Assembly (NCBI GenBank): GCA_026002995.1
Contig: BPGK01000001.1
Coordinates: 558,001-622,000, forward strand
Direction of reading: 5' to 3'
Length of the DNA stretch: 64,000 nucleotides
Source: Gaiellaceae bacterium
GTDB lineage: Bacteria; Actinomycetota; Thermoleophilia; Gaiellales; Gaiellaceae
A program made the position numbers and the translations under genes. The stretch's first letter is position 1, and every line of letters begins with the position of its first letter. The notes beneath the pieces were generated by a model, which saw only the letters and a list, made by a program, of their open reading frames with translations, ran no database searches and was not told the DNA's origin. Below, piece after piece: positions 25,074 to 48,352 of the stretch.

Positions 25074-26135
25074 ATGAGGCGCGCTCTCGTGATCGTCTGC
25101 GTCGCGGCGCTCACCGCCGCGTCTGTCGCCGGCGCCCAGGCAGGGGGACGCTCCTGGGCGAAGCCGCAGATCACCGCTGTCGTCTCGGCGGGGCTCCTCG
25201 CGACGAGCGTCGCGGAGTTCCGGCCCGACGACCCCGTGACGGCGGGCGAGCTCGCGATTGCGCTCTCGGCGTTCGGGGAGGCCGGCGCGGTCGTCGAGGA
25301 CGCGGATCGACCCGTGAGTATGCGCGAGCTCGACGCTCGCCTCGTCGCAGTCGCCGGTCTGAGTCGCGAGGCCCGCGCGATCCGTGGCGCCGCGCTGCGG
25401 GCAGGGCTCTCGCCGACGCCGTGGCTCGGAACGGAGACGGTCGCCCGCCTGCTCGGCTTCCGGATCAACCACCCGGTGGCCAGGGAGCACCTCGAGCGTC
25501 AGCTCGACGAGCCTGCGACGCGGGCCGAGGCTGCCTACTCGATCGCCCGCCTCCTCTCGCTCCGCGCCGACGAGGTGGACGCGCTCCGCACCGCGATCGC
25601 CGCCTTCGAGCTCCCGGAGCTCGACGCGGCCCAGCAAGCGGTTCTGCGTCGCGCGCTGCGCTTCGTGGGCTCGCCGTACGTGTGGGCGGGGTCGTCGGAG
25701 CGACCCCAGCGGATCGGCACGCGCATGGCGCCGGGGGGCTTCGACTGCTCCGGGTTCGTCTGGCGCGTGTACAAGCTCCAGCCGTTCGGATTCGCTCCCG
25801 AGCTCTCGAGCGTGCTCAGGGGCCGGACCTCGTACGCGATGAGCGGCGAGGTCGCTCCCGGGGCACGGATCGGTCGCTCCGACCTCGAGCCGGGAGACGT
25901 CGTCTTCTTCGGCTCGGCAGGGCCGCGCTCGAGGCCGTCGCAGGTCGGTCACATGGGTCTCTACGTCGGTGGTGGCTGGTTCGTCCACTCCTCCTCCAAC
26001 GGGACGACGCTCCAGCCGCTGACGGGCTGGTACGAGCGGACGTTCGCCTGGGCGCGCAGGCCGCTGGCGGAGGCGGGCATTCGCCTCGAGCCCGCGGAGC
26101 GGGCGGCCGGCGGTGGAGTCCCGAAGCGCTCCTGA
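25074..26135 (+). CDS. Secreted NlpC/P60 family peptidoglycan hydrolase
   Basis: Signal peptide; GSPYVWAGSS...GGFDCSGFVWRVYK...DVVFFG...VGHMGLYVGGGWFVHSSS. Confidence 0.85.
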   Translation: MRRALVIVCVAALTAASVAGAQAGGRSWAKPQITAVVSAGLLATSVAEFRPDDPVTAGELAIALSAFGEAGAVVEDADRPVSMRELDARLVAVAGLSREARAIRGAALRAGLSPTPWLGTETVARLLGFRINHPVAREHLERQLDEPATRAEAAYSIARLLSLRADEVDALRTAIAAFELPELDAAQQAVLRRALRFVGSPYVWAGSSERPQRIGTRMAPGGFDCSGFVWRVYKLQPFGFAPELSSVLRGRTSYAMSGEVAPGARIGRSDLEPGDVVFFGSAGPRSRPSQVGHMGLYVGGGWFVHSSSNGTTLQPLTGWYERTFAWARRPLAEAGIRLEPAERAAGGGVPKRS

Positions 26136-26150: not shown

Positions 26151-26375
26151 TGGAGCGTACCGGGATCGAACCGGTGACCTCCGGCTTGCAAAGCTCAACT
26201 CGGCCTTGCGGGCTCGACCGGTAGGGGCGGGGATTACCCGCAAGAGCAGGGGTTTCGTTCGTCGTCTTGCGGGGATTACCGGGAGCCGTCGGCGTCTTCC
26301 GGCGATCGCATGCGGGATGTATGCGGGATGAGGTCGTTGCCTGATTGTAGAACAGAGCACTGAGGTCCGTCGAAC
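26151..26375. repeat. Direct repeat copy A (225 bp) carrying a minus-strand tRNA-Ala(UGC) 3' half (26151-26193)
   Basis: tggagcgtaccgggatcgaaccggtgacctccggcttgcaaag...tgcgggatgtatgcgggatgaggtcgttgcctg...gtcgaac; matched by copy B. Confidence 0.85.
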
Positions 26376-26633
26376 AGGTTCGGCCAGGCTCCTCACCATC
26401 GCGGTCTTTGGCGGGCCTCCGGGTCACAAGAGTTGACCGCCCCGCAAGCGGCTGCGGACGCATCGCGCTCGGCCCTCAACGAGCGGCGTTGACCCCCTTC
26501 TAGAAGCGGCTGGCACCTCACCGTCGCCTGCATTCGTGGGATTACGGTCGCGTTGCCGCTCAGCGACCTCCGATCGCGTGCCGATACTAATCGCGCTAAT
26601 GTTCAAGAATCGTTCAACTGAGAGGAGCTGTAC

Positions 26634-27428
26634 TTGCCCCTGGATCTAGCAGCGGTAGACCGGTCAACGCTCGCGCGGCCCCCGCTGACGAGCGTGATCT
26701 GCCAGGTCAGATACGACACGACCCCTGCGGCCTCCGATGCTCGGAAGCTTCAGGATCTGCGCTCGGCAATCGGCGGGGACGTGGCGTTTCCGTCGGTCGA
26801 GGAGATCAAGCAGGGCGAACTGTCCATCCAGTTCGGGCCAGGGATGTCTCCGGCGGCGTCTCAGCAGACGACCGTCGGGCGGGGATGGCGGCTGCGCAGC
26901 GCGGACGGCACGCGCGTTGTGGCTCTCCTTCCCACGTGGGTGACGCTCGAGATGTTCGCGTACCCGGGCTGGGACGAGGGATTTTTCCCCATGCTCGAGA
27001 GTCTGATCCAGGCCGTCAACGAGATCGTCGAACCGACTTTCGAGCAGCGCCTCGGGCTCCGCTACGTCAACCAGATCACTACTCCGGAGGATGTGAGAAG
27101 CGCTGAAGGGTGGGCGGGATTCATCGATCCGACGTTCCTCTCGGTGGCAGCCCATCCGGAGATCGGACCGCACGTGCATCTGACCCGGCAACAAACCGTG
27201 CTGGAGCTCGGGGACGGAGTCTCCTGCAACGTGAACCACGGCTTCGGCCCGGACGACGATCGCGGAGGGGCGCTGACCTACGTTCTCGATCTCGACGTCT
27301 ACCGTGAGGGCATGCGCGACTTCGACCCGCAGCTGATCTGCGAGACCGTCACACAGTTCAACCTCATCGCGCTGAGGCTCTTCCAGCTCGCCACTACGCG
27401 CGAGCTGCGCGAGGCTCTCGGACGATGA
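26634..27428 (+). CDS. TIGR04255-like family protein
   Basis: RPPLTSVICQVRYD..; QRLGLRYVNQI; overall layout recalled for this family; TTG start. Confidence 0.6.
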   Translation: MPLDLAAVDRSTLARPPLTSVICQVRYDTTPAASDARKLQDLRSAIGGDVAFPSVEEIKQGELSIQFGPGMSPAASQQTTVGRGWRLRSADGTRVVALLPTWVTLEMFAYPGWDEGFFPMLESLIQAVNEIVEPTFEQRLGLRYVNQITTPEDVRSAEGWAGFIDPTFLSVAAHPEIGPHVHLTRQQTVLELGDGVSCNVNHGFGPDDDRGGALTYVLDLDVYREGMRDFDPQLICETVTQFNLIALRLFQLATTRELREALGR

Positions 27429-28402
27429 CCGCCGCGCGAGTCACGGCCGGCACTCCGGTGATCACGCCGGGCGACACGATCGACGAGCTCTTCCCCGCAG
27501 TGCGGCATCAGCGTCGCTTCCATCTCGGCGCGATCTCCTGGCCGTCGAGCGCGGACGAGGTAGATCTCTATCGGCGGACGCTCGACACGGTCGCATGGCC
27601 GCATTCGACGTTCGAGGGCTCGGCGACGCCGGCGGCCGCGCTCGACGAGGTCGACACGACGCTTCTTCCCCATCACACCGAACCGTGGTGGTTCGTGCGT
27701 CGATGGAACCGGCGCCTCGACGAGTACGAGCTCGTCCGGGACGCTATCCGGGAGGTCATGGTCTTCACTGCCGGCGCCGACCCGAAGTGGACGGCATACG
27801 TCGACGTCGGCACGAGCTTCGCGGAGCCCGTCAGCCAACCCTTCGACGTCTGGTGGGAGAGCGGATTCGCCGAGCAGCCGATCATCGGAGGCTCGACGCT
27901 CGTCATTCATCGTCGCGCGCCCGACGTCTACGGCGGGTGGGAGGCCGAGGAGGACGAACCCCGGTTTGCGGTCCTGCGGTCGCCCGCATTCCGCGCGTTC
28001 ACAGAGCTCCGCGATTGGCTGAACCTCTCCGTGCCCGAAGCCACTACGCTGATCGGGGTCGGCCGCACGACTCCGAATGCATGGGAGCGGGAAGGCCGTG
28101 AGCCACGGCCACGACAGGCCCGGAGGCTCTACCAGCTGCACGGCCTGGTCGGGACGCTGGTACGCCGGCTCGGCCTCGATGAGGCGCGGGCGTGGCTCCA
28201 GCAGGGCGATCCGGCACGGTGGCGCCTCATGGAGGACGAGGACATCAGCATGTTCGCGAAGGCTGTTGAGACCATCGCAATGGGGCCGGCTCGGCCTCCA
28301 CGTCATGTCGCAGGAAGCGAGATCGCGGACGACCCAAATGCAGCGCGAGTCTTGCCCGGCGGCACAAGGCGTCGCGTCACCGTGCGACGGAGAAGGCGAT
28401 GA
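27425..28402 (+). CDS. Hypothetical protein with HTH/Xre-like C-terminal region
   Basis: LNLSVPEATTLIGVGRTTPNAWEREGREPRPRQARRLYQLHGLV; 4-bp overlap with upstream gene. Confidence 0.55.
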   Translation: MTAARVTAGTPVITPGDTIDELFPAVRHQRRFHLGAISWPSSADEVDLYRRTLDTVAWPHSTFEGSATPAAALDEVDTTLLPHHTEPWWFVRRWNRRLDEYELVRDAIREVMVFTAGADPKWTAYVDVGTSFAEPVSQPFDVWWESGFAEQPIIGGSTLVIHRRAPDVYGGWEAEEDEPRFAVLRSPAFRAFTELRDWLNLSVPEATTLIGVGRTTPNAWEREGREPRPRQARRLYQLHGLVGTLVRRLGLDEARAWLQQGDPARWRLMEDEDISMFAKAVETIAMGPARPPRHVAGSEIADDPNAARVLPGGTRRRVTVRRRRR

Positions 28403-29290
28403 GCCTCGATCGAGGAGCGTGCGATCGCACCCTGGCCCAGTGACGTCCTTTCGGCGCTCAAGCGGTTCAAGCTCGGCGACCTCGTCGCCGGGGTTCCGTT
28501 CGTCTACCACGGCGCCGTCGAGGACGGCCTTCCTCTCGACTATCCGCCGCCCGATGCGGAGGACGATGATGTGGAGGCGGCTGCGGAGCGCGAGGACCCC
28601 GCTCCTCGAGACCGTGAGTTCGACGCGCTCGCCTGGGAGCCACCGGACGGCGACGGCTACGCGATCATCACGACGCAGACGTGCGATCTCTGTGAGGAGG
28701 GCGAGCCGAGCCAGCCGTGGTTCATGGTGAGCCCGGTGCGTCGGATGTCCGGCGCGCACGCGAGCAGAACGCTCCCCGGCTTCATGTACCGCATCTCGCC
28801 GCCAGATCTCCCGGGAGCCACCTGGGCAGCTGATCTCCGCATGGAGGTCCCGGTCGAGAAGACATTCCTCGTCGGCAAGACCCCGATCGCCGGCTTCGCC
28901 GACGAGAGAGGTCTCATCGACTTCGCCGATGCCCTGGGCCGGCGTCGCGATCGTGCCGCGCTCGCGTCGTCACTCGTCGGCGCCGTCGCAACTACGCTGC
29001 GCGAGCGACGTCGTCGCCAGGACGGTTTCAAGAGGATGCTGCGCCGAGAGGTCTACAGTGTCCGCCTGCGGATTGAGGAAGGCACGCGCGAAGCGCCAGT
29101 GAGCGTGGTCGTGCATGTTTTCACCAGAGGTCCCGTGTCGGACAACGTGCGTGACCGATTCGACGCGTGGTGGGACGAGGCACGCGAGGCCTGCGACCGT
29201 GTGGGAATCACGCTGCTGCCGACAAGGTTCCACGCATGCGAGGCCGACCTCGACATTTACGAGGACGCCATCGCACTCGATCTCGGTTGA
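28403..29290 (+). CDS. Hypothetical protein with ITTQTCDLCEEG motif; no canonical start in frame (apparent frameshift near 28399-28410)
   Basis: Frame open from 28403; first in-frame ATG is only at 28571, inside protein-like sequence. Confidence 0.55.
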   Translation, partial: ASIEERAIAPWPSDVLSALKRFKLGDLVAGVPFVYHGAVEDGLPLDYPPPDAEDDDVEAAAEREDPAPRDREFDALAWEPPDGDGYAIITTQTCDLCEEGEPSQPWFMVSPVRRMSGAHASRTLPGFMYRISPPDLPGATWAADLRMEVPVEKTFLVGKTPIAGFADERGLIDFADALGRRRDRAALASSLVGAVATTLRERRRRQDGFKRMLRREVYSVRLRIEEGTREAPVSVVVHVFTRGPVSDNVRDRFDAWWDEAREACDRVGITLLPTRFHACEADLDIYEDAIALDLG

Positions 29291-29390
29291 GACCCCGCTT
29301 CCGCCCGGTGGCAGGCAGTCGGGCGAGTCGCGCCGTCCCCAAGGGGAGAAGCGACGGCACCGAAGGCGTGAGTGAGTTCGCTCGTCGTTT

Positions 29391-29410
29391 GCTTTACGAA
29401 GTGCTAAAGC
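29391..29410. promoter_or_regulatory. Candidate operator dyad GCTTTA-N8-TAAAGC upstream of small ORF
   Basis: gctttacgaagtgctaaagc. Confidence 0.35.
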
Positions 29411-29461
29411 GCATGCTAGTGTGCGTTTCGCTTAGCTAATCGGAAAGCGACGAAGGAGACG

Positions 29462-29779
29462 ATGTCCGCAAGAACTGCGAGGGCGCTCAGAAATGTGGAG
29501 AAGGCGGTTGCCGAGCTTCGTGCGTCGCTTGCGGCCGAAGATGCTCAGGTGGCGGGCGACGAACGATGGCTCCGGATGCTGACGATGGTTGAGGATGCCG
29601 GCGGGACAGTGACTCGCGACGAGTGGCGGGAGCTGGGACTCAAGTGCGGCTACGACCCGCGGGGCCTTGGCGGGTTCTACCGAGGGACGTACGCCTCGAT
29701 GCGTGTGAATCCCGACGGCACGCGATCCCTGACGGCTGCCGGAGTGGAGTACCTCACAAAGTACGGCCGGAAGCGCTGA
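29462..29779 (+). CDS. Small hypothetical protein, winged-helix-like
   Basis: MLTMVEDAGGTVTRDEWRELGLKCGYDPRGLGGFYRGTYASMRVNPDGTRSLTAAGVEYLTKYG. Confidence 0.55.
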   Translation: MSARTARALRNVEKAVAELRASLAAEDAQVAGDERWLRMLTMVEDAGGTVTRDEWRELGLKCGYDPRGLGGFYRGTYASMRVNPDGTRSLTAAGVEYLTKYGRKR

Positions 29780-29920
29780 GCGCAACAAGAAGCCGATCGC
29801 ACCCGACGCACGAGTGCGTGTGCGTCGGGTGTGCATGGTCTCGCTCTACACCTCGTGGCCACTCACCGAGATGGCGGCGACGCTCGAGAAGATTGTGATG
29901 GCGCTCGAGTAGCCGCCCGC

Positions 29921-30730
29921 CTACAGCGTCAGCGGGCTCGCGGTCTCGGTCTCGACCTTGGCCTTCCGCGCCTCCCAGGTAGCGACGAGGAAGCTGGCCA
30001 TCGCGCCAGCCAGGTTGACCGCCAGCTCGGCGTGTCGCGGGGCGGGGCGGACCGGCTTCGATCCCTGTCCGTGCGCGTCGCTGATGCGGTTGCGCAGCGT
30101 GGCGAGCCCGTTCACGACCGACCAGCAGCCGCCGAGGATCTGCTTGAACGCCTCTTCAGTGTGTTCGCTCGGGGCGATGTTCAGGGCCGAGGCGACCTTC
30201 CCGTAGAGCTTGGGCAGGTCGTCGTCGCTGTAGGTGACCTGCAGGTCGTCGAGGATCAGCTTGCAGACGGTCTCGAGCAGAGTCCGGGCAGCGGTGATCG
30301 CTCCCTCGGGATCCGATGCGCGCCGACTCAGCGCCTTGTCCCAGGCTGCATGCACGTGGTCGGCGTCGAGTGTCGACAGCGTCTCCGTCGTCGCCGCATC
30401 CGAAGGCGTCTCGCCAGCCTCGAGCGCCTCGAGGAGCGGAGCGAAGGCGTCCCAGATCTCGGTGCGTCGCTCGTGGTAGTGCGCCCAGCGGGCCTTGATG
30501 TAGCCCCAGAACTGCGCCGGGTCGCGGCAGGTGCGGACGAACGTCGGCACGAGCTCCTTGCTCCGCGAGTCGTTCATCAGCCGGCGGCGCAACTTCCCGT
30601 AGTCGTACGGGGTGATGGAGCCGCCGGTGGCGTGCGCGAGTAGGCCGTTCTGCAGGGCCTCGGCGGCCTCGTACAGCGTCAGTTCGTCTAGATCGGGTTC
30701 GGGCTCGTCATCCTCGAAGAACACGAGCAC
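29921..30730 (-). CDS. Abortive infection family protein (Abi_C-like C-terminus)
   Basis: EGAITAARTLLETVCKLILDDL...LPKLYGKVASALNIAPSEHTEEAFKQILGGCWSVVNGLATLRNRISDAHGQG. Confidence 0.7.
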   Translation of the reverse strand: MLVFFEDDEPEPDLDELTLYEAAEALQNGLLAHATGGSITPYDYGKLRRRLMNDSRSKELVPTFVRTCRDPAQFWGYIKARWAHYHERRTEIWDAFAPLLEALEAGETPSDAATTETLSTLDADHVHAAWDKALSRRASDPEGAITAARTLLETVCKLILDDLQVTYSDDDLPKLYGKVASALNIAPSEHTEEAFKQILGGCWSVVNGLATLRNRISDAHGQGSKPVRPAPRHAELAVNLAGAMASFLVATWEARKAKVETETASPLTL

Positions 30731-30744
30731 ATCGTAGGTGCCGC

Positions 30745-31501
30745 CTACTCGCCGATGGCCGTGCGGACGAGCTCGCTGAAGCCGATATAGAGATGCGCGA
30801 GGCCGGCGGCCGCGCCGAGGAACGCCAGGCGCTCGTTGTGCTTGTGGAACGGATCCCGCTCCCACGCAGCGACGAGGTCCCGCTGCTTGTCCCAATGGAT
30901 CAGATCGCCGAAGTGGTAGGCCGAGAACAGGTAGACGGGCGAGTGCTCGCTGCCGAACTCGAGGTTCGGGTCGACCTTGCGGCGGACGAGACGCTTCAAC
31001 TCCGTGGCCTGCAGCTTCCCGCGCGCGCCGCGCCAGGCATCGAGCTGCGCACAGCGCTCGTCGGCCAGACCGTCGGTCTCGGCGGCCGAGGCCTTGCCGG
31101 AGGCGGCCACTGACGATGAGGAAGCTCGCCGGCTCGCCCTTGCCGTCGAACTGGCGCAGGAGGGTCGAGAACCCACGTGTGATCTCCTTCGACGTCTCGA
31201 TCGCTTCAACGTGTTCCTCGCCCGTGTCGTCGTCGAGGTGGACGGTCATCTGGTCGTCCCCTCCGAGCAGCTGGCTCTCGGCCAGCTCCTCGGCCGCGAC
31301 GATGAAGCGCTGGCAGAGCTCGAGGCTCTCCTGGTCGAGGGGCTGCGTGAGCGTCGGGAACGAGCGCGGGTCGGCGATGTCCGGGAAGACGAACTGAAGC
31401 ATCCGCCACCAGAAGCGGAAGGCCTCCGGGTTCGGCGCGCGATCGATCAGCGGCGGCTCGAACGTTAGGACGTTGTTCTCGATAATCGCCTCGGCGGCCA
31501 C
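30745..31501 (-). pseudogene. Partner gene of the Abi module, split between two frames (apparent frameshift ~31105-31115)
   Basis: Frame 1: MAAEAIIENNVLTFEPPLIDRAPNPEAFRFWWRMLQFVFPD...FLIVSG; frame 2: GKASAAETDGLADERCAQL...HNERLAFLGAAAGLAHLYIGFSELVRTAIGE. Confidence 0.6.
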
Positions 31502-32017
31502 GGCTGTGAACCGAACGAACTCGCCGTCCTTCTTCTTCGGCTGACGGGCCGTCGAGCCAGCGTAGCGCCGCCCTGGGCCGCTTCTTCGGCGTCGGGCTAG
31601 CCGTCCAGCCAGAGGCCGACGGCTGCGCTACGCCGTTCCTTGAAGAGCAGCCCAGAAGATCGGCGGGCCGTGGTCGATCGCACGGCGGTGAGCATGACAG
31701 CGTCTGCCAAAGCCGGGTCGTGGCGAGGAGCAGGCTAATCGCTCTGGTGTCAGCCGCGACAACGGTGAGCTACGCCTGTGACTCTGGCGCGGGATGTGCG
31801 CGGGATGGCGTTGTTGTCTGCCAAGAAATCCCTGCACACAGGAATGTCCTCGACGACCGCCGACGTGATCTCCGATCTACTTCAACCGGCACAGAACTTG
31901 CGGGAATTTGCGGCCACGAGCGGGTTTCGCCGGCGTCAGCCCGATTCGCGCGAGCACGCCGCTGGCGTGGATTTTGCCCATAAAGGCAACAACAAAGTGC
32001 CAATTTGCAGGTGTTTA

Positions 32018-32242
32018 TGGAGCGTGCCGGGATCGAACCGGCGACCTCCGGCTTGCAAAGCTCTGCTTTGCCTTGCGGGCCTAGCCGGCGCATGCGGGGA
32101 TCACCGGCGAGAGCAGGGATTTCGTCCGGCGCCTTGCGGGGATTGACGGGAGCCGCCGGGGCCTTCCGGCGACCGCGTGCGGGATGTATGCGGGATGAGG
32201 TCGTTGCCTGGTTGCAGAACAGAGAACTGTGAGCCGTCGAAC
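32018..32242. repeat. Direct repeat copy B (225 bp) carrying a minus-strand tRNA-Ala(UGC) 3' half (32018-32060)
   Basis: Same length and layout as 26151-26375, diverged in the middle. Confidence 0.85.
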
Positions 32243-32383
32243 TGCTCGCCCGCGCCGCGAGCAGGACGCGGGCTTCCCATCCCTCAGACCAGGACGGCAG
32301 CTGCGGTCGCCGCGGGCCGCCGCCGGGACCGCCCGCCGGCGGACCCCGCTGCCCTACGCTCGGTTGCGCGAGACGAAGCATCA

Positions 32384-32403
32384 GTATTCGCTTATGCTTA
32401 TAC
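32384..32403. promoter_or_regulatory. Candidate ArsR-family operator GTATTCGCTTATGCTTATAC
   Basis: Imperfect dyad (7/10 arms) immediately before the ArsR start. Confidence 0.45.
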
Positions 32404-32406
32404 AGC

Positions 32407-32751
32407 ATGAGCGTCGAATCTCCAAGCGGCCTGGTCGAGACGAGGGCGCAGCTCTTCCACGGGTTCTCGGACCGCTCGCGGCTCTCGATTGTGGAGGCGC
32501 TTCGTGAGGGCGAGCGGCGGGTGAGCGACGTCGTCGCAGTGACGGGGCTGACCCAGCCGAACGTCTCCATGCACCTCGCCTGTCTTTGGGAGTGCGGCCT
32601 CGTCGCGCGCGAGAAGCGCGGCCGCGAGGTCTACTACCGGCTGATCGAGGGCGTTCCCGAGCTCCTCTCCGCGGCGGACGTGATCCTTGTGGTGGCCGGC
32701 GAGACGGTTGGTGCCTGCCCGCGCTACCGGGTGGGAAGGCGAGCCGCCTGA
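32407..32751 (+). CDS. ArsR family metalloregulator
   Basis: FSDRSRLSIVEALREGERRVSDVVAVTGLTQPNVSMHLACLWECGLV. Confidence 0.9.
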   Translation: MSVESPSGLVETRAQLFHGFSDRSRLSIVEALREGERRVSDVVAVTGLTQPNVSMHLACLWECGLVAREKRGREVYYRLIEGVPELLSAADVILVVAGETVGACPRYRVGRRAA

Positions 32752-34670
32752 GCGGCGAGCACGAGCTCGAGGAGCGCCTCTCCTGGAGGGAGGCGACGTA
32801 TCGCTTTCCGCCGCTTCGGAACGCGCTCGCGGCTGCCGCTCTGACCCTGGCCGGAGTCGTCGCTGAGTTACTGGGCGTTCCGGAGGCGGTGTCGCTCATC
32901 CTCTTCCTGGCGGCGATCCCGGTCGGGGGCTTCTACTTCGCGCGCAAGGGGATCGAGGAGCTCGTCCGCGAGCGCGAGGTCGGGATCGAGATTTTGATGC
33001 TGGTCACCGCCTTCGGGGCGATGGCGTTTGGGCTCTTCGAGGAGGCGGCGGCGCTCGTCGTCCTCTATGCGAGCGCGGAGGCGGTCGAGGAGCTGACCTT
33101 CGCCCGCACGCGCTCGGCGATCCGCGAGCTACTCGACCTCGCCCCCAAGCAGGCGACCCGCCTGCGCGAGGGTCGCGAGGAGCTCGTGGCGGTGGAGGAG
33201 CTTGCGCCGGGGGACCTCTTTCTCGTCCGTCCCGGGGAGGCGATCGCGACCGACGGCCTCATCCGCTCCGGGCGGGGGGCGCTGAACGAGGCGCCCGTGA
33301 CCGGGGAGGCGGTGCCGGTCGAGAAGGGGCCCGGGGCGGAGGTCTTCGCCGGCTCGGTCAACGGCCCGAGCGCGCTCGAGGTGGAGGCGACCCGCCCCTT
33401 CGCCGAGAACACGCTGCAGCGGATCATCCACCTGGTCGAGGAGGCGCAGGAGAAGAAGTCGCGCGCCCAGCGCTTCGTCGACCGCTTCAGCGAGCGCTAC
33501 AGCCCGGCCGTGCTCGGGGCCGCGCTCCTGGTGGCGGTCGTGCCCACACTCCTCGGTGGCGAGTGGGAGGAGTGGGCGCTGCGCGCGATCACGCTCGTCG
33601 TCGCCGCCGCCCCCTGCGCGCTCGTGATGTCGATTCCGGTCGCCGTCGCCGCGGCGATCAGCCGCGGCGGCCGCGAGGGCATCCTCGTCAAAGGCGGCGC
33701 CCAGCTCGAGGCGCTCGGCCGGATCCGCGTCGTCGCCCTCGACAAGACGGGCACGCTCACCGCCGGCCGCCCGCAGGTGACCGACGTGGTCGCACTCGAC
33801 GGAGCGAGCGAACGTGACGCGCTCGCGCTCGCGGCCGCGGTCGAGGCCCACTCGGAGCACCCGCTCGCGGCCGCGATCGTCGCCCACGCCGAGGTGGAGC
33901 GAATCACCTTCGAGCCGGCCGAGGCCTTCGAGGCGCTCGTCGGGCACGGCGCCCGCGCGCGTCTCGACGGGCGCGAGCTGTGGGTGGGAAGCCCCCGCCT
34001 GCTCGCCGAGCTCGCCCCCGAGGCGACGCTCCCGCCACAGGCTGAGGAGCTGCAGGCGCAGGGCAAGACGGTCGCGATCGTCGGCGAGGATGTTCGCCCG
34101 CTCGCGCTCATCGCCCTCCGCGACGAGCCACGGCCGGAGGCCCGTCGCGCGATCGCGGCGCTCCGGCGGCTCGGGATCCAGCACGTCGCGATGCTGAGCG
34201 GCGACAACGAGCGCACCGCCCGCGCGATCGCCGCCGAGCTCGGGATCGACGAGGTGCTCGCCGAGCTCCGCCCCGAGGACAAGGTCGAGGCGATCGAGCG
34301 CCTGCGCGCCGAGCACGGGCAGGTCGCCATGGTCGGAGACGGGATCAACGACGCTCCCGCCCTCGCCCGCGCCGACCTCGGGATCGCCATGGGCACGGGC
34401 GGCACCGACGCCGCCATCGAGGCCGCCGACGTCGCGCTCATGGCCGACGACCTAGACAAGGTGGCCGAGGCGCTCCGCCTCGGTCGGCGTGCGCAGCGGA
34501 TCTCCCGCCAGAACCTCGTCTTCTCGATAGCCCTCCTGGCCCTCCTGATCCCGAGCGCCCTCGCCGGCCTGCTCACCGTCGTCGCCGCCGTTCTCGTGCA
34601 CGAGGTCTCCGAGCTGCTCGCGGTCGCGAACGGGGTGCGGGCGGCACGGCCGGGGCCGGTCTCCGCGTAG
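32748..34670 (+). CDS. P1B-type metal ATPase with APC membrane motif (start uncertain, CTG at 32748 or nearby)
   Basis: VVAAAPCALVMSIPVA; DKTGTLTAG; MVGDGINDAPAL. Confidence 0.9.
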   Translation: MSGEHELEERLSWREATYRFPPLRNALAAAALTLAGVVAELLGVPEAVSLILFLAAIPVGGFYFARKGIEELVREREVGIEILMLVTAFGAMAFGLFEEAAALVVLYASAEAVEELTFARTRSAIRELLDLAPKQATRLREGREELVAVEELAPGDLFLVRPGEAIATDGLIRSGRGALNEAPVTGEAVPVEKGPGAEVFAGSVNGPSALEVEATRPFAENTLQRIIHLVEEAQEKKSRAQRFVDRFSERYSPAVLGAALLVAVVPTLLGGEWEEWALRAITLVVAAAPCALVMSIPVAVAAAISRGGREGILVKGGAQLEALGRIRVVALDKTGTLTAGRPQVTDVVALDGASERDALALAAAVEAHSEHPLAAAIVAHAEVERITFEPAEAFEALVGHGARARLDGRELWVGSPRLLAELAPEATLPPQAEELQAQGKTVAIVGEDVRPLALIALRDEPRPEARRAIAALRRLGIQHVAMLSGDNERTARAIAAELGIDEVLAELRPEDKVEAIERLRAEHGQVAMVGDGINDAPALARADLGIAMGTGGTDAAIEAADVALMADDLDKVAEALRLGRRAQRISRQNLVFSIALLALLIPSALAGLLTVVAAVLVHEVSELLAVANGVRAARPGPVSA

Positions 34671-34918
34671 CCCGGGGCCCCTCGCCGGGCGAGCAGGCCG
34701 CCGCGCTCCTGTCGGGCTCGCCACGGCATACTGGGAGCCAGGGTCAGCGATTTGCCGAAGGAAGGGCGAATCGGGGTGGTACCGGCTGGCTCTCGTCGGT
34801 TGTAGTGTCACCCCCCATCGGCGGGGGCCGTCCGGGAAGCAGACGGAACCCCACTGTGAGGAGAGGCGACCCTAGTAGACCCCCGGCTCCGATCACCAGT
34901 CGGGCTAGCCTTGCCACG

Positions 34919-35806
34919 ATGGGCACGGCCCACTTTCGGAGGAGTGGCCTGTTGGCGGTCGCTGTGGGTGCAGCCGTGATCCTTGTCGGTCTCGTGGGGT
35001 GGCAGGTGGTCGGCGGGGGCGACCGCGGCGATTCGGCGGACGGTCCAGGGCCGGTACACGTGCACGCGCTCGGGATCAATCCAGCCGACGAGGCGCTGTT
35101 CATCGCGACGCACACCGGTCTCTATCGGGTCAGCCGCGGAGAGGATGAGGCGAGCCGTGTCGGCGATCGTTACCAGGACACGATGGGGTTCACGGTCGTC
35201 GGCTCAGACCGCTTCCTCGGCTCCGGCCATCCCGACTTGCGCGACGACCTTCCGCCGCATCTTGGCCTGATCGAGTCGACGGACGCGGGCGTGACGTGGG
35301 AACCCATCTCGCTTCTCGGCGAGGCCGACTTCCACGTGCTCCGCCTTGCCGATGAGCGCCTCTACGGCTACGACGCCTCGAACGACCGGCTGCTCGTGAG
35401 CGAGGATCTCGGCCGAACGTGGAGCGAGCTCGAGAAGCCCGGCCCGGTCGTCGACCTCGTCGTGTCGCCCGTCGATCCCGCCCGGATCGTCCTCGCGTCG
35501 GCCGGTGGCCGGGAAGAGGGACTGTTCGCGTCGAAGGACGGCGGGCGGACGTGGAAGCGGATCCACGATGTCGTCGGTCTCCTCGCTTGGCCTGCGCCGG
35601 AACACCTCTACGCGCTCGCAAGCCACGGCGAGGTCCTCGAGAGCGCCGACCGCGGCCGGTCGTTCGAGCCAAGTGGCGAGATCGGGGGCGACCCGGCCGC
35701 CTTCCTGGCCGCGAGCGCCAGCGAGCTCTACGTCGCCCTCCACGACGGGACGATCAAGCGCACGACAGATGGCGGAGCGAGGTGGACCATCCGCTCGGCG
35801 CCGTGA
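34919..35806 (+). CDS. Secreted/lipid-anchored beta-propeller (BNR / sortilin-like, F510_1955-like) protein
   Basis: N-terminal TM; ESTDAGVTWEPI, VSEDLGRTWSEL, ASKDGGRTWKRI, RTTDGGARWTI. Confidence 0.75.
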   Translation: MGTAHFRRSGLLAVAVGAAVILVGLVGWQVVGGGDRGDSADGPGPVHVHALGINPADEALFIATHTGLYRVSRGEDEASRVGDRYQDTMGFTVVGSDRFLGSGHPDLRDDLPPHLGLIESTDAGVTWEPISLLGEADFHVLRLADERLYGYDASNDRLLVSEDLGRTWSELEKPGPVVDLVVSPVDPARIVLASAGGREEGLFASKDGGRTWKRIHDVVGLLAWPAPEHLYALASHGEVLESADRGRSFEPSGEIGGDPAAFLAASASELYVALHDGTIKRTTDGGARWTIRSAP

Positions 35807-37293
35807 GCGCCCGCCCGCGTGTCGGGAAAGTTCTCGTATGCCTCCTCGTCGCGGGTCTCGTAATCACCGCCGCAGTCGCAACCTTTGAACTGACACGCGT
35901 CGAGGACGAGGAGCCCCCACGGCCTCTCGCTGTTCCGTCCGAGATTGTCGGGCCGGACCCGCTCGCGTTCGACGACGCGCGGCGGAGCGCGTATGAGCGC
36001 GCCGCCGCCTTCGGGCTCAGCCACGTTCTCTTTGCGAAGAGCCCGGGCGGCGTCGTCGCCTCAGCCCGGAGAACCGCCGACTTCCGACCCTTGGTCGAAG
36101 AGGCCGTCGCCGGGAGCGGGATCGACCCGGACTTGCTTGAGGCGATCGTCTTCCTCGAGAGTGCGGGGCGGCCGGACGTGATCGCGGGACACGACGTCGA
36201 GCACGCCGCTGGACTCGTTCAGATCCTGGCCGAGACCGCCACGAACTTCCTCGGTATGCCGGTCGATCTTGCGGCGAGCAGGCAGCTCACGAAGCGGATC
36301 GACGAGGCACGCCGCCGCGGCGACGCGGATGCCGTCGATGCTCAGCTCGCCGAGCGCCGAGGAGTCGACGCCCGCTTCGACCCATCCCAGGCGCTCGCCG
36401 GGGCCGTCCGCTACCTCACCGAGGCCCGTGACCGGTTCGGGCGGGAGGATCTGGCGGTCGTCTCCTACCACATGGGGATCGGCAACCTCGAAGGCGTTCT
36501 GCGCGCCTACTCAGGCCGCTCGAACGGGTCCATCGAGACGGTCGTCGACGAGGAGGACCTCGACTACGTCCGCGTCTACTTCGACTCGTCGCCCGGCCGC
36601 AATCGCGGAGCCTGGGAGCGGCTCTACTCCTTCGGGGACGACTCGCAGACCTACTACTGGCGAGTGCTCGCGGCACGGGAGATCATGGGCCTCTTCCGCA
36701 AACGGCCCGCCGAGCTCGAGCGCCTCAGCGAGCTGCACGGTCGCGGGCCGAGCGCAGAGCTGGTACTCCACCCGCCCGACGCGACGCCGCGCTTCGCGGA
36801 GCCGGACGACCTCGAGCAGGCGCTCGCGAGAGGTGATCTCCGGAAGATCCCGGACGATCCGGAGCGCCACCACTTCCGGATCGGCCCTGGCATTGGCCGC
36901 GAGGGCGCCCGCAGCGGCGAGGACTCCGCCGCCTATCCCACCCTGCGCCCCAGGGCCATACGCCTTCTTCGCTATCTCGCCGCACAGGTTTATGAGCTCA
37001 GCGGAGAGACCACCCCGTTGACCGTCACGCGCGTGGCCTCCGACGAAGCCTCGGCAGGCTCGCTCCCCAAGTCGACCCCCGACAGGGCGACGCACGCGTC
37101 GATCCACGCGACCGGCTACTCGTTCGACGTCCGCCGGCGGTACGGATCGGGCACCCAGGCGGAAGCCTTTCAGTGGACGCTCGAGCGCCTCGGGGCGCTC
37201 GGTCTGATCGCCTGGTCGCGCGACGACGCATTGATCCACGTCACCGTCTCCCCGAAGGCGGATGTGCGTCCGCCTACGAGCGCGTCTCGGTAG
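35803..37293 (+). CDS. Lytic transglycosylase SLT-domain protein with C-terminal peptidase-like domain
   Basis: LLEAIVFLESAGRPDVIAG..AAGLVQIL; YHMGIGNLEGVL; C-terminal THASIHATGYSFDVRRRYG. Confidence 0.7.
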   Translation: MSARPRVGKVLVCLLVAGLVITAAVATFELTRVEDEEPPRPLAVPSEIVGPDPLAFDDARRSAYERAAAFGLSHVLFAKSPGGVVASARRTADFRPLVEEAVAGSGIDPDLLEAIVFLESAGRPDVIAGHDVEHAAGLVQILAETATNFLGMPVDLAASRQLTKRIDEARRRGDADAVDAQLAERRGVDARFDPSQALAGAVRYLTEARDRFGREDLAVVSYHMGIGNLEGVLRAYSGRSNGSIETVVDEEDLDYVRVYFDSSPGRNRGAWERLYSFGDDSQTYYWRVLAAREIMGLFRKRPAELERLSELHGRGPSAELVLHPPDATPRFAEPDDLEQALARGDLRKIPDDPERHHFRIGPGIGREGARSGEDSAAYPTLRPRAIRLLRYLAAQVYELSGETTPLTVTRVASDEASAGSLPKSTPDRATHASIHATGYSFDVRRRYGSGTQAEAFQWTLERLGALGLIAWSRDDALIHVTVSPKADVRPPTSASR

Positions 37294-37927
37294 CGCGTGC
37301 GGCGGTCTCGCTGCGCATCTCTCGCTCGGCGGGAGAAACCCATTTGGCGTGATGGCGCGTTGCCCAGTCTTCGCGGACCGACCCCAGCGTCATCCCGCGG
37401 AGCGCGTGTCGGGTGGCCGGATGGATAACCGCCAGGTAGAGGTGGCCGGTGACGAGGAAGACGGATGCGATCGTAAGCCCGTCGTGAAGGAGAAGCGTGC
37501 TCGTCCAGCGGAAGTCGGTGTTGCGCTCCCCGTACCAGAGCAGAAACCCCGAGGCGGCGAAGAGCACGGCGAAGGCACCCGTCAGCGCCGCGTTCAGCTT
37601 CTGGCCCGCGTTGAAGCGGCCTTGCGGAGCCGGGCGCGCGGCGAGCCAGCGCCTGTCGTCTCCGTCGAAGAGGTCGAGCTCGCGGAACGTGCGACCCAGC
37701 CCCGAGCGGTCGCCGACCAGCACGACCAGCACGAGCGCGAGGACCCAGGCGATCGCCGTGTAAACGTGGATCGCCTTCACGAGCGGGCGGTTGCTGACCG
37801 CGATCGACAGGGACGGCAGGTAGAGGACGAGTCCCGTGCCGAGCAGGACGAAGAACGCGCTCGCGTGGATCCAGTGGAGCGCCCGCTCGGTGCGCGAGAA
37901 GCGGCGGACGTAGCGGACGCTAGCCAT
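37274..37927 (-). CDS. Cytochrome b561/b6-type membrane subunit
   Basis: RFSRTERALHWIHASAFFVLLGTGLVLYLP; IHVYTAIAW; LTIASVFLVTGHLYLAVIHP. Confidence 0.8.
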   Translation of the reverse strand: MASVRYVRRFSRTERALHWIHASAFFVLLGTGLVLYLPSLSIAVSNRPLVKAIHVYTAIAWVLALVLVVLVGDRSGLGRTFRELDLFDGDDRRWLAARPAPQGRFNAGQKLNAALTGAFAVLFAASGFLLWYGERNTDFRWTSTLLLHDGLTIASVFLVTGHLYLAVIHPATRHALRGMTLGSVREDWATRHHAKWVSPAEREMRSETAARATETRS

Positions 37928-38630
37928 AGCCGTTCGAGCGCCCGACCCAGGCGTCGCGGTCGTAGCCTCGCTCCTCCCAGTAGCCGTCGAACGCCTCCTC
38001 ACCGAGCAGGATCCGCTCGACCCACTTGACGTTCTTGTAGCCGTACATCCTCGGGATGACGACGCGGGCTGGCGCCCCGTGCTCCCGCGCGAGGGGCTTC
38101 CCGTCCATCTCGTAGGCGAGCATCGCATCGGGCAGGAGCGCCTGCTCGAGCGTCAAGGTGTCGACGTAAGGCTGCTCCGCGGAGACGAACGCCACAGCCT
38201 TCGCGCTCGGAAGCGGCCGAGCCTGCTCGAAGAGGTCGCCGAAGCGGACGCCCGCCCAGCGCACGTCCTCGACGCTCCACCCGGTGACGCAGTGGAAGTC
38301 GGAGACCTGCTCGGCCCGCGGCAACGCGAGCAGCTCGTTGTAGGTGAGCTCGAGCGGCCGCTCGACGAGCCCTTCGATCCGCAGCCGCCACGTCGCCCGG
38401 TCGAAGGTCGGCATCGGCGGGTTGACGTTGTAGATCCGCCAGCCTCCGGTGGGCGAGGGGAGCGCGTCGAGCCCGGGGACGCGTCCCGTGGCGGGGCCGA
38501 GCAGTGACGAGAGGGCCCGCCACGCCGGCTCGCCCCAGGCAAGCGAGGAGAGGCCGAGCGCGACGACGCCGAGAAAGGCACGGCGCCCGTACGGGCGCAC
38601 GTCGGAACCAGCCGGCTCGGGCATCGCCAC
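37920..38630 (-). CDS. Tat-exported molybdopterin-dependent oxidoreductase (YedY/MsrP-like)
   Basis: RRAFLGVVAL Tat-like signal; DFHCVTGWSVEDVRWAGVRFGDL; GAPARVVIPRMYGYKNVKWVERI. Confidence 0.88.
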   Translation of the reverse strand: MAMPEPAGSDVRPYGRRAFLGVVALGLSSLAWGEPAWRALSSLLGPATGRVPGLDALPSPTGGWRIYNVNPPMPTFDRATWRLRIEGLVERPLELTYNELLALPRAEQVSDFHCVTGWSVEDVRWAGVRFGDLFEQARPLPSAKAVAFVSAEQPYVDTLTLEQALLPDAMLAYEMDGKPLAREHGAPARVVIPRMYGYKNVKWVERILLGEEAFDGYWEERGYDRDAWVGRSNGYG

Positions 38631-38686
38631 AGTATGAGGCTGGGCGCTCGCGCCCTCAGGGGTGCAGAGCCGATTTCACGGGTATT

Positions 38687-39373
38687 TCAGACATCGGCGA
38701 GTCCGAGGGCTCGCCTGCCGAGCAGCCTCCACTTCGCGAGGAACTGGGCACGCGTCCATACGAGCCGGCTTCCGCTGAGCGGGTCGTTGACGCTGATCGA
38801 GTTGCCGCGCAGGCGTGTCAGGACCACGACGTGCTCGCCGAAGTTGACGGTGATGCGCTTGCCAGCGGGGGTTCGCCAGGAGCGGTACGGCCCTCTGCTG
38901 AGCCCGATCCAGGTCATCACAGGGCGCCCGCGCGCGAGTTGGGCGAAGAGGCGCTCGCGCTGGCGAGTCAGGTCGGTGAGCCGTACGCCGTAGCGGGCGG
39001 CGAGGGCGCGGATGGGCCTCTGGTACACGCCGAACCCTCCCGCAGTGCCCCCGCCTTCCGGGCGGCCGACGAAGCCCTTCTCGGGATCTCCCCACGTCCA
39101 GGTGCCGTCTGCGGCGACGATCGGATCGAGTGGCCCGCTCCGCCGGACCTGCCGCTGCAGCGTCCGCTGGTCGACGCGCACGCCGACCGAGGCGAGCAGC
39201 ATCGAAAGCGAGGCGGTCTCGCAGTTGTTCCGGTAGGCCTGCCGCACGAGTGGCACCTCTCCGATGGCTGGTCGTTCCGCCGCGAATGCCTGCCGCTCGC
39301 CGCCGCCGACGAAGCCCGCGCCTTCGGCGACGGCGAGCGCGGCGCCGAGCGTCGCCATGACTCGTCGACTCAC
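38687..39373 (-). CDS. C39-like (papain-fold) peptidase, secreted
   Basis: YRNNCETASLSMLLASVG; GRPVMTWIGLS; FGEHVVVLTRLRGNSISVNDPLSG. Confidence 0.75.
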   Translation of the reverse strand: MSRRVMATLGAALAVAEGAGFVGGGERQAFAAERPAIGEVPLVRQAYRNNCETASLSMLLASVGVRVDQRTLQRQVRRSGPLDPIVAADGTWTWGDPEKGFVGRPEGGGTAGGFGVYQRPIRALAARYGVRLTDLTRQRERLFAQLARGRPVMTWIGLSRGPYRSWRTPAGKRITVNFGEHVVVLTRLRGNSISVNDPLSGSRLVWTRAQFLAKWRLLGRRALGLADV

Positions 39374-40107
39374 TGCTCCCGCACCTCGGGCCGTCGGGCG
39401 AAGGCGATTCCCGCCTCGCTCTCCGCGAGCGTCACGTCGATGTCGACGAAGTACCTCGCCTCGAGCAGGTCGCGCCAGCTCTCGGGGGAAGCGGGGTGCT
39501 CCCAGCGCCCGGCCGCTATGCGGCCGGCATTGCGAGCGAGCCGGACGATCCCGGCCGGACCCTTGCGCGCGACCCCCAGGATCATGCTTCCCACGATCCG
39601 CCGGTCGCGCGACGCGAGAGAGAGCGAGAACATCATGTCGCAGACGACGAGCCGCCCGCCTGGCCGGAGGATGCGCCTCGCCTCGGCGAGGGCGAGCGCC
39701 TTCCCTTCGTCTCGAAGGTGATGGAACGCGTAGCTCGAGACGACCACGCTTGCACATTCGTCCTCGAGCGGGACTTCCCTCATGTCCGCGACGACGGTGT
39801 GGACGTTCTCGAGCCCGTCCGCCATCGCCCGCTGCGAGAGGCGTTCGAGCATCGGTTCGGAGTAGTCGACCGCGTAGACGGCGGCGGCGCTGCGCGCGGC
39901 CGGAAGGCTAAGCAGTCCGGTGCCCGCCCCCAGGTCGGCGACGACCTCGTCCGCACGCGGCGAGGCCAGCTCGAGCACCTGCGCGGCGAGTCGAGTGAAC
40001 ACCGGAGACGCCGCGAGCTCGTCCCACGCGGCGACCCGGGCGTCCCAGGGTGTCGTCTCGGATAGCCGTCCCCGCGGAAGCCGGATGACGGCGTTGTGGC
40101 TCTGCAC
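39370..40107 (-). CDS. Class I SAM-dependent methyltransferase
   Basis: EVVADLGAGTGLLSLPAA; VVVSSYAFHHLRDEGKALALAEARRILRPGGRLVVCD. Confidence 0.88.
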   Translation of the reverse strand: MQSHNAVIRLPRGRLSETTPWDARVAAWDELAASPVFTRLAAQVLELASPRADEVVADLGAGTGLLSLPAARSAAAVYAVDYSEPMLERLSQRAMADGLENVHTVVADMREVPLEDECASVVVSSYAFHHLRDEGKALALAEARRILRPGGRLVVCDMMFSLSLASRDRRIVGSMILGVARKGPAGIVRLARNAGRIAAGRWEHPASPESWRDLLEARYFVDIDVTLAESEAGIAFARRPEVREQ

Positions 40108-40167
40108 TCTTTTTCCTCCTTACTTCGGATGCCAACGACGACGAGGCCCTGTCGGGCCGTCGTCGAC

Positions 40168-40479
40168 TCACAGCCGAAGCGGCTGGAAGAAGGAGCTATC
40201 GATACCGGGCTGACTGAGCCGCGGGGTCGCCTGCGGCGGTGCGCGCGAGAGGCTCGCTCTACGTTGCCGGATCCTCGGCCGTACAGCCCCTGCAAGATGA
40301 AGAGCCGCGATCAGCACTATCGCGAGGGCTACGCAGATCAGCTCGACGTGCCCGGCAATGCCCTCACTCGTCTCGTGCAGCGCGATGAATGCGACGAGAA
40401 CGACGAGGGCGAGAAGCAGGAGCGGCCCGAGAACCGGATGACGAAGGCCTCGCTCGAGCTGACAGCGCAGACGGATCAC
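40168..40479 (-). CDS. Small membrane protein
   Basis: Two TM segments. Confidence 0.5.
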   Translation of the reverse strand: MIRLRCQLERGLRHPVLGPLLLLALVVLVAFIALHETSEGIAGHVELICVALAIVLIAALHLAGAVRPRIRQRRASLSRAPPQATPRLSQPGIDSSFFQPLRL

Positions 40480-40518
40480 CTGACGAAGGCTAACGGACGC
40501 TGCTCGGCGCTCGAACCG

Positions 40519-41447
40519 CTATCCCGTCACCTGGCTCGGGACGATCGGGTACAGCCACGCCTCGACTCCGTCCACGTGCGTGCCCGGCGTGGACCAGGGG
40601 TATCTAGAGATCCGCGCGTTCGCCCCTGTGCCGGAGACGCTTCCCACCGCGTAGAGCTCGTTGAGGAGCAACCGGCCGCTACGGATCGAGTACGCGTACC
40701 GGTCCAAAGAGCGCACGGGCGGGCCAGCCGTTCGGTTCCCCTCGGCGTCGTACTGCGCGCCGTGGCAGGGGCAGCCAAACGACTGGGCGAGCACAGGTCG
40801 GAGCTCGACGCGTCGAGCTCCTTTCGCGCATTGTCGTCGATCGGTCCGTTTGGCTGTACGGGGCAGCCCAGGTGCACGCACCGTCCGTACAGGATGGTGA
40901 AGCTCGGCTCGCCGGCTTCCGTGAGGCCGTTGTAGCGGATGAATGCCGTGCGCCGGCTCACCTCCCCTTGCCCGGGCGCGGCGAGGTAGTTCGTGATCAC
41001 GAACTCGCCCTCTGGGAAGTTCTCGATCGGCCCGAGATCGACCTCCCCCTCCTCCACGTTCGTGAACGAGGGAAGCACCATGAACCCGAGCACCGGAAGC
41101 GTGACGACCGCGCCGATCGCTGCACCTACGCCGACCGTCGCGGCCTCGAGGAAGCGCGACCGCGTATACGCTGGCAACGGTTCTGCTGCAGCCGCGGGAG
41201 CTGCAGTCGCGTCCGGTTCGGCGACGACGCGCGTCTCGGGCTCGACCTCGGGGACCTCACCGCGTACGTCGCGTGTGACGTCGCGCGCCCAGAGCAGGCC
41301 GAAGACGGCCGCGAGAATCGCGCCGATCAGAGCGACGAGCCAGCTGATGACAAGTCCGAGGAGCAGGCACGCGACACCTGCGGCGAAGCCGATGGGCCAC
41401 AGGCTTGACCCGGGCGGGTGCGTTCGCTCCTGACTTGGATCGGTCAC
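40519..41447 (-). pseudogene. Rieske 2Fe-2S protein, frameshifted between its two cluster motifs
   Basis: Frame 1 encodes TM region and YGRCVHLGCPVQPNG; frame 2 encodes FGCPCHGAQYDAEGNRTAGPPVRSLDRYAY...PSQVTG. Confidence 0.8.
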
Positions 41448-41689
41448 GGCTGGCCGTCCGGATTCAACACTCGGTCGCGCCAGCCCCGTACGAAGATCTC
41501 GTGAATGTCTTCGCCGCCGGCGGTGAGGCCATCAGGCTGTGTCTGCCGAGATGTCTCGCCATGGAGAAACGGCCACGAGGTGATGGTCAAGTATTCCCGA
41601 CCTGCTCGGCGGTACTCGGCTTGCCGAATGAAGCCCGGCGTGGACACGCCTGCGTCGCTCGCCCAGGGTCGAGACCCACAACGTCCGTG

Positions 41690-42358
41690 ATGTCTGCCCG
41701 ACGCCTCGTCCGAGTGCTATCGACGTTCTTCGTGCTCGCCGGCCTCGCCCTCATCGGCTGGACGCTCGTCGTCTGGCAGTGGCAGGACCCGTTCACGTAT
41801 CTGCTGATGCAGCATGAGCAGCGGGCTCTGACGAAGCGCTACGAGCAACGGGAAGCGACCTATCGCTCGCAGCCAGGAGCTGCTGCCTCGGGCACTCCGA
41901 CGGTTTCCGAGGAGGCGCGGAGGTTCCGGCGTGCCTCCGGCTCGGGCGCACCGATCGCTCGCCTGCGCATACCGCGGTTGGACCTGAACGTCGTCGTCGT
42001 CAACGGAACCGACAGCGAGACGCTGAAGAAGGGCCCGGGCCGCCATCTCTCGACGTTCATGCCGGGTGAGGGCGAGCTCTCGTACATCGCCGGACATCGC
42101 ACGACGTACGGCGCGCCCTTCTCGAACATCGACCAGCTGGAGCCAGGAGACGAGGTAACCGTCGAGCTTCCGTACGCGACGTTCGTGTACGCGGTGACCG
42201 GGCGACGGATCGTTCCTGCCAGCTACGTCGCGGCGCTCGAATCTCGCGGCCGCGAGGAGCTCGCGCTCCAGGCTTGCTGGCCGCGCTTCTTCGCCACGCA
42301 GCGCATCATCGTCTACGCGCGGCCGGTGAGGATCACAAGGCGTGCTCGCGCTCCGTAG
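41690..42358 (+). CDS. Class E-type sortase
   Basis: IPRLDLNVVVVNGTDSETLKKGPGRHLSTFMPGEGELSYIAGHRTTYGAPFSNIDQL; C-terminal LQACWPRFFATQRIIVYA. Confidence 0.85.
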   Translation: MSARRLVRVLSTFFVLAGLALIGWTLVVWQWQDPFTYLLMQHEQRALTKRYEQREATYRSQPGAAASGTPTVSEEARRFRRASGSGAPIARLRIPRLDLNVVVVNGTDSETLKKGPGRHLSTFMPGEGELSYIAGHRTTYGAPFSNIDQLEPGDEVTVELPYATFVYAVTGRRIVPASYVAALESRGREELALQACWPRFFATQRIIVYARPVRITRRARAP

Positions 42359-42836
42359 CGCGTGCGGCTTGACCCCGGCTTACGAGCTGATCCGAAATGT
42401 CTGAAGACGGTCGCCGCCTGCAAGGAGAGCGCCCCACCTCCTCGTCGTCTCGCTTTCGGCCCACATCGCCTCTGTCGACCTGCGCACGCCGATCGTCTTC
42501 CTGCGCGAGTCGAGGCGGCTCCTACTCTACGAGAAGGAGAAGCGGTCGCTGGTTCAGGTTGCTCCGGGGGAGCCATCGGAGTGTTGCTGCCAGCAGGCCT
42601 GGCGCCTTGCCACCGGCAGGGGAGTGTTCCGACCATCCGTGCGGCGGCGGTACGTCTCCTCGACGGAGCTGAAGCCGGCCTGCCGAGCGATGTGCAGGAG
42701 CGCGCCTCGCGGGCGGAAGCGGAGTGCGCGGATTTAGCGATCTGTCACCCGAGTCTTGGTCTTACACCAAGTCGCCGTGGCGTAGCATCTCCTCAGTGCG
42801 AGACTGGCTCCGTCCGAATCCGCGAGGCGGGGCCGC

Positions 42837-44828: not shown

Positions 44829-44890
44829 TCCTCCGCGCCGGCATCGACGGCCGTCGTGCGCTCGTCGGCGAAGCGGCGTACCCTGCTCGT

Positions 44891-45535: not shown

Positions 45536-45588
45536 CGGGGCGGTCGCCCGCCCCGAGGCTCGCGTGCCCTTCGACCTCGAGGAGGGAG

Positions 45589-45855
45589 ATGGAGTCCGAA
45601 CTTACCGCTACGCTCGAGCGCGCCGCGCACAGCACGTGGCGAGCGCTTGCCCTGACTGCGATCGGCCCGCTGACCGTTCTCGCCGGGGTGGCGTGGGCGC
45701 TCGTCCAGCCCTACCGGGTGACGCTTCTCGATCCGCGCGCCCACGGCGTCTGGGATCACGTCGTCCAGCCGCCGCTCCTGGTCGTGACGGTCGGGGTGCT
45801 CTTCCACGTCGTCGTCGTCCGACCGCTCGTACGCGCGCTCGAAGGAGGCTCCTGA
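45589..45855 (+). CDS. Small membrane protein (2 TM)
   Basis: GGAGGGAG ribosome-binding site; coupled with next gene. Confidence 0.65.
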   Translation: MESELTATLERAAHSTWRALALTAIGPLTVLAGVAWALVQPYRVTLLDPRAHGVWDHVVQPPLLVVTVGVLFHVVVVRPLVRALEGGS

Positions 45856-47722: not shown

Positions 47723-47735
47723 GAGCGGCCGGCGT

Positions 47736-48236: not shown

Positions 48237-48352
48237 GAGCGTGGATTATCGGTCGGCGCGAGGCCACCGGTTGCGAAGATGCTGTGAAGGCGTTTGCCGC
48301 ATCGGTGACGGTGGCACTTGAACCATCCGTGCCCACACCGAGGAGGTCCCTG

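Follow-up and report, generated by a model that had tools for sequence, protein, structure and literature searches.

The window analysed here is a stretch of 64 000 nt (C1:558001-622000) in a genome that consists of one 2.62-Mb contig. Judged by the 2-oxoglutarate dehydrogenase protein, the nearest named relative is a Thermoleophilia MAG (69%), and the organism probably belongs to this class. A repeat search of the window detected a single pair of direct repeats of 226 nt (26150-26375 and 32017-32242) that were 85% identical, confirming the two diverged repeats of equal length described in an earlier note on this DNA, and a blastn search of the repeat against the whole genome returned 84% identity over 225 nt (E = 6.5e-67). 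On the minus strand, each repeat is closed by the 3' half of a tRNA-Ala(UGC) gene, which spans 44 nt from the anticodon loop to the discriminator. Over its first 44 nt, the left repeat (copy A) agreed with the 3' part of the intact tRNA-Ala(TGC) gene at every position (100%), and the tRNA part of the right repeat (copy B) showed two differences from it. The two copies matched at 42 of 44 nt in the tRNA part and at 148 of 181 nt (82%) outside it, after which the homology ended abruptly. As previously noticed, the 5' half is absent from both copies, and no tRNA-Ala(TGC) was found by ARAGORN over the window. A genome-wide search with the 225-mer recovered the two full copies and otherwise the tRNA core only, so that the genome contains exactly two displaced tRNA-Ala 3' halves (C1:584151 and C1:590018) and the 225-mer was ruled out as a common dispersed repeat. 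A tRNA-Arg(ccg) called by ARAGORN at window positions 32246-32341 (minus strand) was absent among the 45 tRNAs of the Rfam model and is probably spurious. Short open reading frames with an (M)ERAGIEPATSGLQS-like motif also run antisense to the tRNA 3' halves (window positions 26113-26331 and 32005-32232, plus strand); these may be a spurious protein, a possible product of automatic annotation.

The intact tRNA-Ala(UGC) gene and the matching integrase that the earlier note proposed to look for elsewhere in the genome were both found to the right of the window. The intact gene is single in the genome (C1:662138-662210, minus strand) and lies 72-78 kb right of the two repeats, and the tRNA 3' ends of copy A (window position 26151), copy B (window position 32018) and the intact gene are all oriented alike. 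A tyrosine integrase of 403 aa (C1:660891-662102), with a PF00589 match above the cut-off, ends 36 bp from the 3' end of the intact tRNA. The remark that no integrase is visible thus holds for the window but not for the array, whose integrase lies beyond it. Upstream of the integrase are genes for an excisionase-family HTH protein (TIGR01764), a DnaG-like primase, a ParB-family protein and a DUF932 protein. The locus has the make-up of a tRNA-targeted island, with a 3' fragment in the same orientation downstream of an intact tRNA and an integrase within the interval beside that tRNA. Used as a query against the genome-contig collection, the integrase gave no match. Two more tyrosine-recombinase genes lie close together at C1:846611-849263, distant from the array, one of them in an 872-aa open frame.

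The second motif shared by the repeats is a pair of 7-mers, GCGGGATNNNNGCGGGAT, forming the direct repeat GCGGGAT-N4-GCGGGAT. The 2.62-Mb genome has exactly four copies of it, all on the plus strand (Table 1); the reversed-pattern control gave 0 and the chance expectation in the window was 0.00. The third partial relative of this motif suspected at ~31787-31822 is real (31789-31820, 81%), and its core is one of the four genomic copies. Core B is flanked by site pairs on both sides, and copy A and the intact tRNA have a pair on one side each, on opposite sides. In the attP of lambda-type tyrosine integrases, arm-binding sites lie on both sides of the core; integration leaves the element with an arm at either end, and both arms meet at a tandem junction. 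Since the positions of the four pairs match this expectation for tandem attP sites, we divided the array into element 1 and element 2, in line with the earlier suggestion that homology beyond the tRNA core marks the ends of related elements in tandem. The GCGGGATNNNNGCGGGAT pairs are probably arm-type sites of the integrase as predicted from sequence, and the GCGGGATG direct-repeat pairs flanking the cores most likely represent putative attP arm-binding sites; it is their position, repetition and spacing that suggest binding by Int.

Table 1. Features of the tRNA-Ala(UGC) array (window coordinates, or contig coordinates where prefixed with C1)
Feature	Position	Strand	Remarks
NlpC/P60-like gene, conserved chromosomal left flank of array	25074..26135	+	same-genus homologues with 62-65% aa identity
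Core A, displaced tRNA-Ala(UGC) 3' half	26151..26194	-	44/44 nt versus intact gene; 15 bp past NlpC stop codon
Right arm of element 1	26195..26375	.	82% identity to 32062-32242; homologues beside tRNA cores in other genera
Predicted arm-type integrase site pair GCGGGATGTATGCGGGAT	26312..26329	+	one of four in genome; 118 bp from core A
TIGR04255 family protein, element 1 cargo	26634..27428	+	NCBIfam TIGR04255, E = 8.8e-36
325-aa protein, element 1 cargo	27425..28402	+	weak HTH_31, Pfam PF13560, E = 0.0023, below cut-off
239-aa protein, element 1 cargo	28571..29290	+	no Pfam, NCBIfam or PADLOC match
105-aa protein, element 1 cargo	29462..29779	+	no Pfam, NCBIfam or PADLOC match
Abi_C / AbiJ-like reading frame, element 1 cargo	29921..31501	-	Pfam PF14355, E = 3e-23; PADLOC AbiJ, E = 1.5e-20, C-terminal part only
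Predicted left-arm site pair of element 1 (GCGGGATGTGCGCGGGAT), the third partial motif	31789..31806	+	upstream of core B, 212 bp away
Core B, displaced tRNA-Ala(UGC) 3' half, junction of elements 1 and 2	32018..32061	-	95% identity to intact tRNA
Right arm of element 2	32062..32242	.	82% identity to element 1 right arm
Predicted arm-site pair of element 2	32179..32196	+	118 bp from core B
Left 32 kb of 72-kb element 2	32062..64000	.	runs on to C1:662137 (window coordinate 104137, outside window)
GCGGGATNNNNGCGGGAT copy 1	C1:584312	+	right of core A; the pair at 26312..26329
GCGGGATNNNNGCGGGAT copy 2	C1:589789	+	left of core B; the pair at 31789..31806
GCGGGATNNNNGCGGGAT copy 3	C1:590179	+	right of core B; the pair at 32179..32196
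GCGGGATNNNNGCGGGAT copy 4	C1:662069	+	within last codons of integrase gene, left of intact tRNA

Element 1 extends from core A to core B (5.87 kb), with a G+C content of ~66%, slightly below that of the chromosome. Both of its attachment ends are kept, namely cores A and B, the right arm at A and the left-arm pair at 31789, and no integrase was detected in it, either with PF00589 or with an HMM built from the resident integrase and its relatives (13 sequences in all). The island that had been proposed between the two repeats can now be described more closely, as the lesser of two members of a 78-kb array and the one that has no integrase. Within its Abi_C/AbiJ-like reading frame, the coding signal changes frame at ~30745-31110, which looks like a mid-gene disruption; a decayed gene, two overlapping genes and an assembly error are alternative explanations of the switch.

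Element 2 extends from core B to the intact tRNA (72.1 kb) and ends on the tRNA-proximal side with the integrase and the four genes upstream of it. Its genes were taken from a simple codon-usage caller, and errors are to be expected in some start positions and among the small genes. Those in the window include an ArsR regulator, three P-type metal ATPases, a CsoR-type repressor, CopC-CopD and CcmF, among others, and further cargo comprises a multicopper oxidase, a cupredoxin, a cytochrome b, two-component systems and redox proteins. The ccmF gene of element 2 is a second copy, 70% identical to the resident gene at C1:1667280, and most relatives have one. No relaxase, type IV secretion or FtsK-type transfer genes were found by Pfam in the majority of the gene calls, which were scanned. 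Because its G+C content (~70%) is the same as that of the chromosome, composition lends element 2 no support.

We consider it very probable that the array arose when two tRNA-targeted integrative elements accreted in tandem in the single tRNA-Ala(UGC) gene. The integrase would recombine the ~45-nt tRNA 3'-half core of attP with the identical sequence in the tRNA gene, and each insertion would restore an intact tRNA from the old 5' half and the 3' half of the element while displacing the earlier 3' half. Element 1, with its TIGR04255, HTH and Abi-type cargo, would have inserted first and is now a CIME-like segment with no integrase; element 2, carrying Int, the Xis-like HTH protein, the primase, ParB and the metal and redox cargo, would then have inserted adjoining element 1. 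At the first T-stem pair of the tRNA, copy A and the intact gene share A-U, and copy B has G-C in its place; both alleles also occur in intact genes of relatives. If the crossover is assumed to lie at the anticodon end, A would be the original chromosomal 3' half, B would have been brought by element 1 and the 3' half of the present intact gene by element 2, and from this allele pattern we infer that element 1 preceded element 2. Any present-day mobility of the array would likewise be a matter of inference. We also observed that the compensatory T-stem alleles (A-U and G-C) are mixed among intact tRNA-Ala genes and displaced 3' halves (C1:662138-662210, 584151 and 590018; L065), as expected if integration swaps the tRNA 3' half.

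We then compared the insertion site among same-genus genomes, in which neighbourhood comparisons are coarse since the relatives have only ~62-65% protein identity in the NlpC flank. The 5' side of the tRNA was syntenic and the 3' side was different in every genome compared, that is, the site is variably occupied, as is typical of a tRNA-targeted island. In G006, the tRNA is accompanied by a 44%-identical integrase and by a 3' half 6 kb on, and the contig with the tRNA shares a 99-nt overlap with the contig leading to NlpC. In G009, a tRNA-Ala 3' half lies ~200 bp downstream of the NlpC gene and another contig contains a copy of the A/B arm (80-83% identical), and three displaced 3' halves were found in G007. 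Given the variable 3' sides and the displaced halves near NlpC, the interval between NlpC and tRNA-Ala is an insertion hot spot in this genus. The comparison with an empty site proposed earlier did not succeed: NlpC directly beside an intact tRNA was found in none of the relatives examined, all of which were occupied, with contigs breaking in the region. Relatives carrying the same genes without the repeats, which would have spoken against insertion, were not encountered either, the flanking genes being conserved and the DNA at the tRNA 3' end differing. On the other side of the tRNA, ~29 kb (C1:662211-691400) lie between its 5' end and a conserved upstream block that begins near C1:691400 and directly abuts the tRNA in same-genus relatives. 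This insert contains aromatic-catabolism-like genes (by eye), no repeat accounts for it, and it is a separate rearrangement outside the two-element model. Just inside the arm of the G009 element (L066, G009:C185, 1521-3227), genes for a macrodomain protein and a DarT-like protein were recognised by eye; these would be a putative DarTG-type pair.

The arm module was also found beyond the genus. Integrase relatives in the family adjoin tRNA-Ala(TGC), Ala(CGC), Asp(GTC), Gly(GCC) and Val genes, and in other genera the arm module lies beside tRNA-Asp(GTC) 3' halves. These tRNA-Asp modules aligned with copy B almost without gaps from the core to the arm pair at 62-66% identity, and the distance between arm pair and core was 117-120 bp across genera. 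Among the 34 places in the family with the exact arm pattern that were examined, 21 had a tRNA 3' fragment within 300 bp and 13 had no tRNA fragment in that range; several of the 13 have one variant sequence in common and are possibly unrelated. The reversed arm pattern had no match in the counts listed for the 103 genomes searched. A weak arm-like match at tRNA-Val (G088) was not counted as homologous, the motif spacing being shared but the arm identity only 42%, and an arm-like stretch in G027:C131 had no recognised Ala or Asp core. A 31-kb contig, G091:C132 (L112 and L196), contained four tandem tRNA-Asp(GUC) 3' halves with arm pairs (cores near 903, 3586, 16571 and 22386), and no integrase was detected on it. 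Such an array could have come about by repeated decay, or its segments could be passengers that have no integrase and are moved in trans. The cargo between its cores is very different from one to the next, with a sugar ABC transporter and amylase-like genes in one place and a RES/Xre-like toxin-antitoxin pair in another (by eye).

Other histories were weighed against tandem accretion. The array could be a single 78-kb island from A to the tRNA in which copy B is an internal duplication of the left end, as would fit the presence of only one integrase between A and the tRNA and of the same arm in both repeats. Copy B, however, also has a left-arm site pair, which is unexpected from a duplicated left end, its core allele is unlike those of both A and the intact tRNA, and the divergence between the two arms (18%) is about equal to that from the element of another species (G009); we regard this history as improbable. 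The idea that the two copies are dispersed repeats of an ordinary kind, or come from a failed duplication of the tRNA gene, without any insertion, deserves next to no credence: both are indeed partial tRNA copies, but there are only two in the genome, and the integrase and arm sites are placed as insertion predicts.

A different question is whether element 1 ever carried an integrase. Element 1 and segments like it could be an integrase-less class moved in trans by the integrases of related elements, keeping only an att module and cargo, and the tandem tRNA-Asp array of G091:C132 points in this direction, since both arms are retained, as in element 1, in two of its segments (2.7 and 5.8 kb), and since the arm module with its constant spacing is conserved across genera. 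On the other hand, CIME decay is a documented route (PMC5704250) that predicts the same local picture, and an integrase of a different subfamily, or one encoded outside the contigs, may have escaped detection; we therefore hold movement in trans to be a possible but less likely origin of element 1. The broader proposal is equally tentative, namely that element 1 belongs to a family of trans-moved, integrase-less, att-bounded segments that form tandem arrays at tRNA genes throughout this Thermoleophilia family and share a modular att of ~225 bp, in which the arm lies ~118 bp from an exchangeable tRNA-Ala(UGC) or tRNA-Asp(GUC) core.

Under the preferred reading of two accreted elements, the array is a tRNA-targeted island beside a CIME-like remnant. 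An intact tRNA, a displaced fragment and an integrase are the standard signature of an island (PMC4383910), and the array resembles the tRNA/tmRNA islands of Islander (PMC4383910) in its intact tRNA, its 3' fragments in the same orientation, the integrase adjoining the tRNA, the anticodon-side core (~44 nt) and a length inside the range of 2-200 kb. A tandem array in Islander, however, needs an integrase for each member, and because element 1 contributes a fragment without an integrase, the Islander rule counts one island here. The accretion, at one tRNA gene, of a CIME that has no integrase and an element that has one is described in a review with the same three-step history (PMC5704250), and the present array is alike in that a segment without an integrase but with both attachment ends directly adjoins an integrase-bearing neighbour in the same tRNA gene. 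The two elements also share their specificity, as CIME accretion implies, in the same tRNA core, a homologous arm (82%) and the same arm motif. Element 2 differs from the ICESt1-type case (PMC5704250) in that none of its genes was recognised as a conjugation gene; it hence has no visible engine for cis-mobilisation and, over the majority of gene calls scanned with Pfam, does not qualify as a self-transmissible ICE. The Acinetobacter G08 and G62 islands (PMC6070778) are likewise integrase-bearing with metal-resistance cargo; they belong to another phylum and host, and the likeness is one of description rather than sequence. The array is thus a known kind of arrangement, and what may be new is the conserved arm with an exchanged tRNA core together with the integrase-less tandem array; a limited search of the open-access literature found no paper on non-autonomous tRNA arrays.

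In sum, the ends of a 78-kb mobile array were mapped precisely in a little-studied and mostly uncultivated bacterial class, which explains why its left end alone resembled an integrase-less island, and the four arm-site pairs supply attP sequences that are directly testable. The occurrence of the same arm with different tRNA 3' halves across genera provides a natural series for changes in the target tRNA of an integrase, and the same series bears on whether integrase-less segments are fossils or passengers. If movement in trans were true, such segments would be tRNA-anchored cargo cassettes served by shared integrases.
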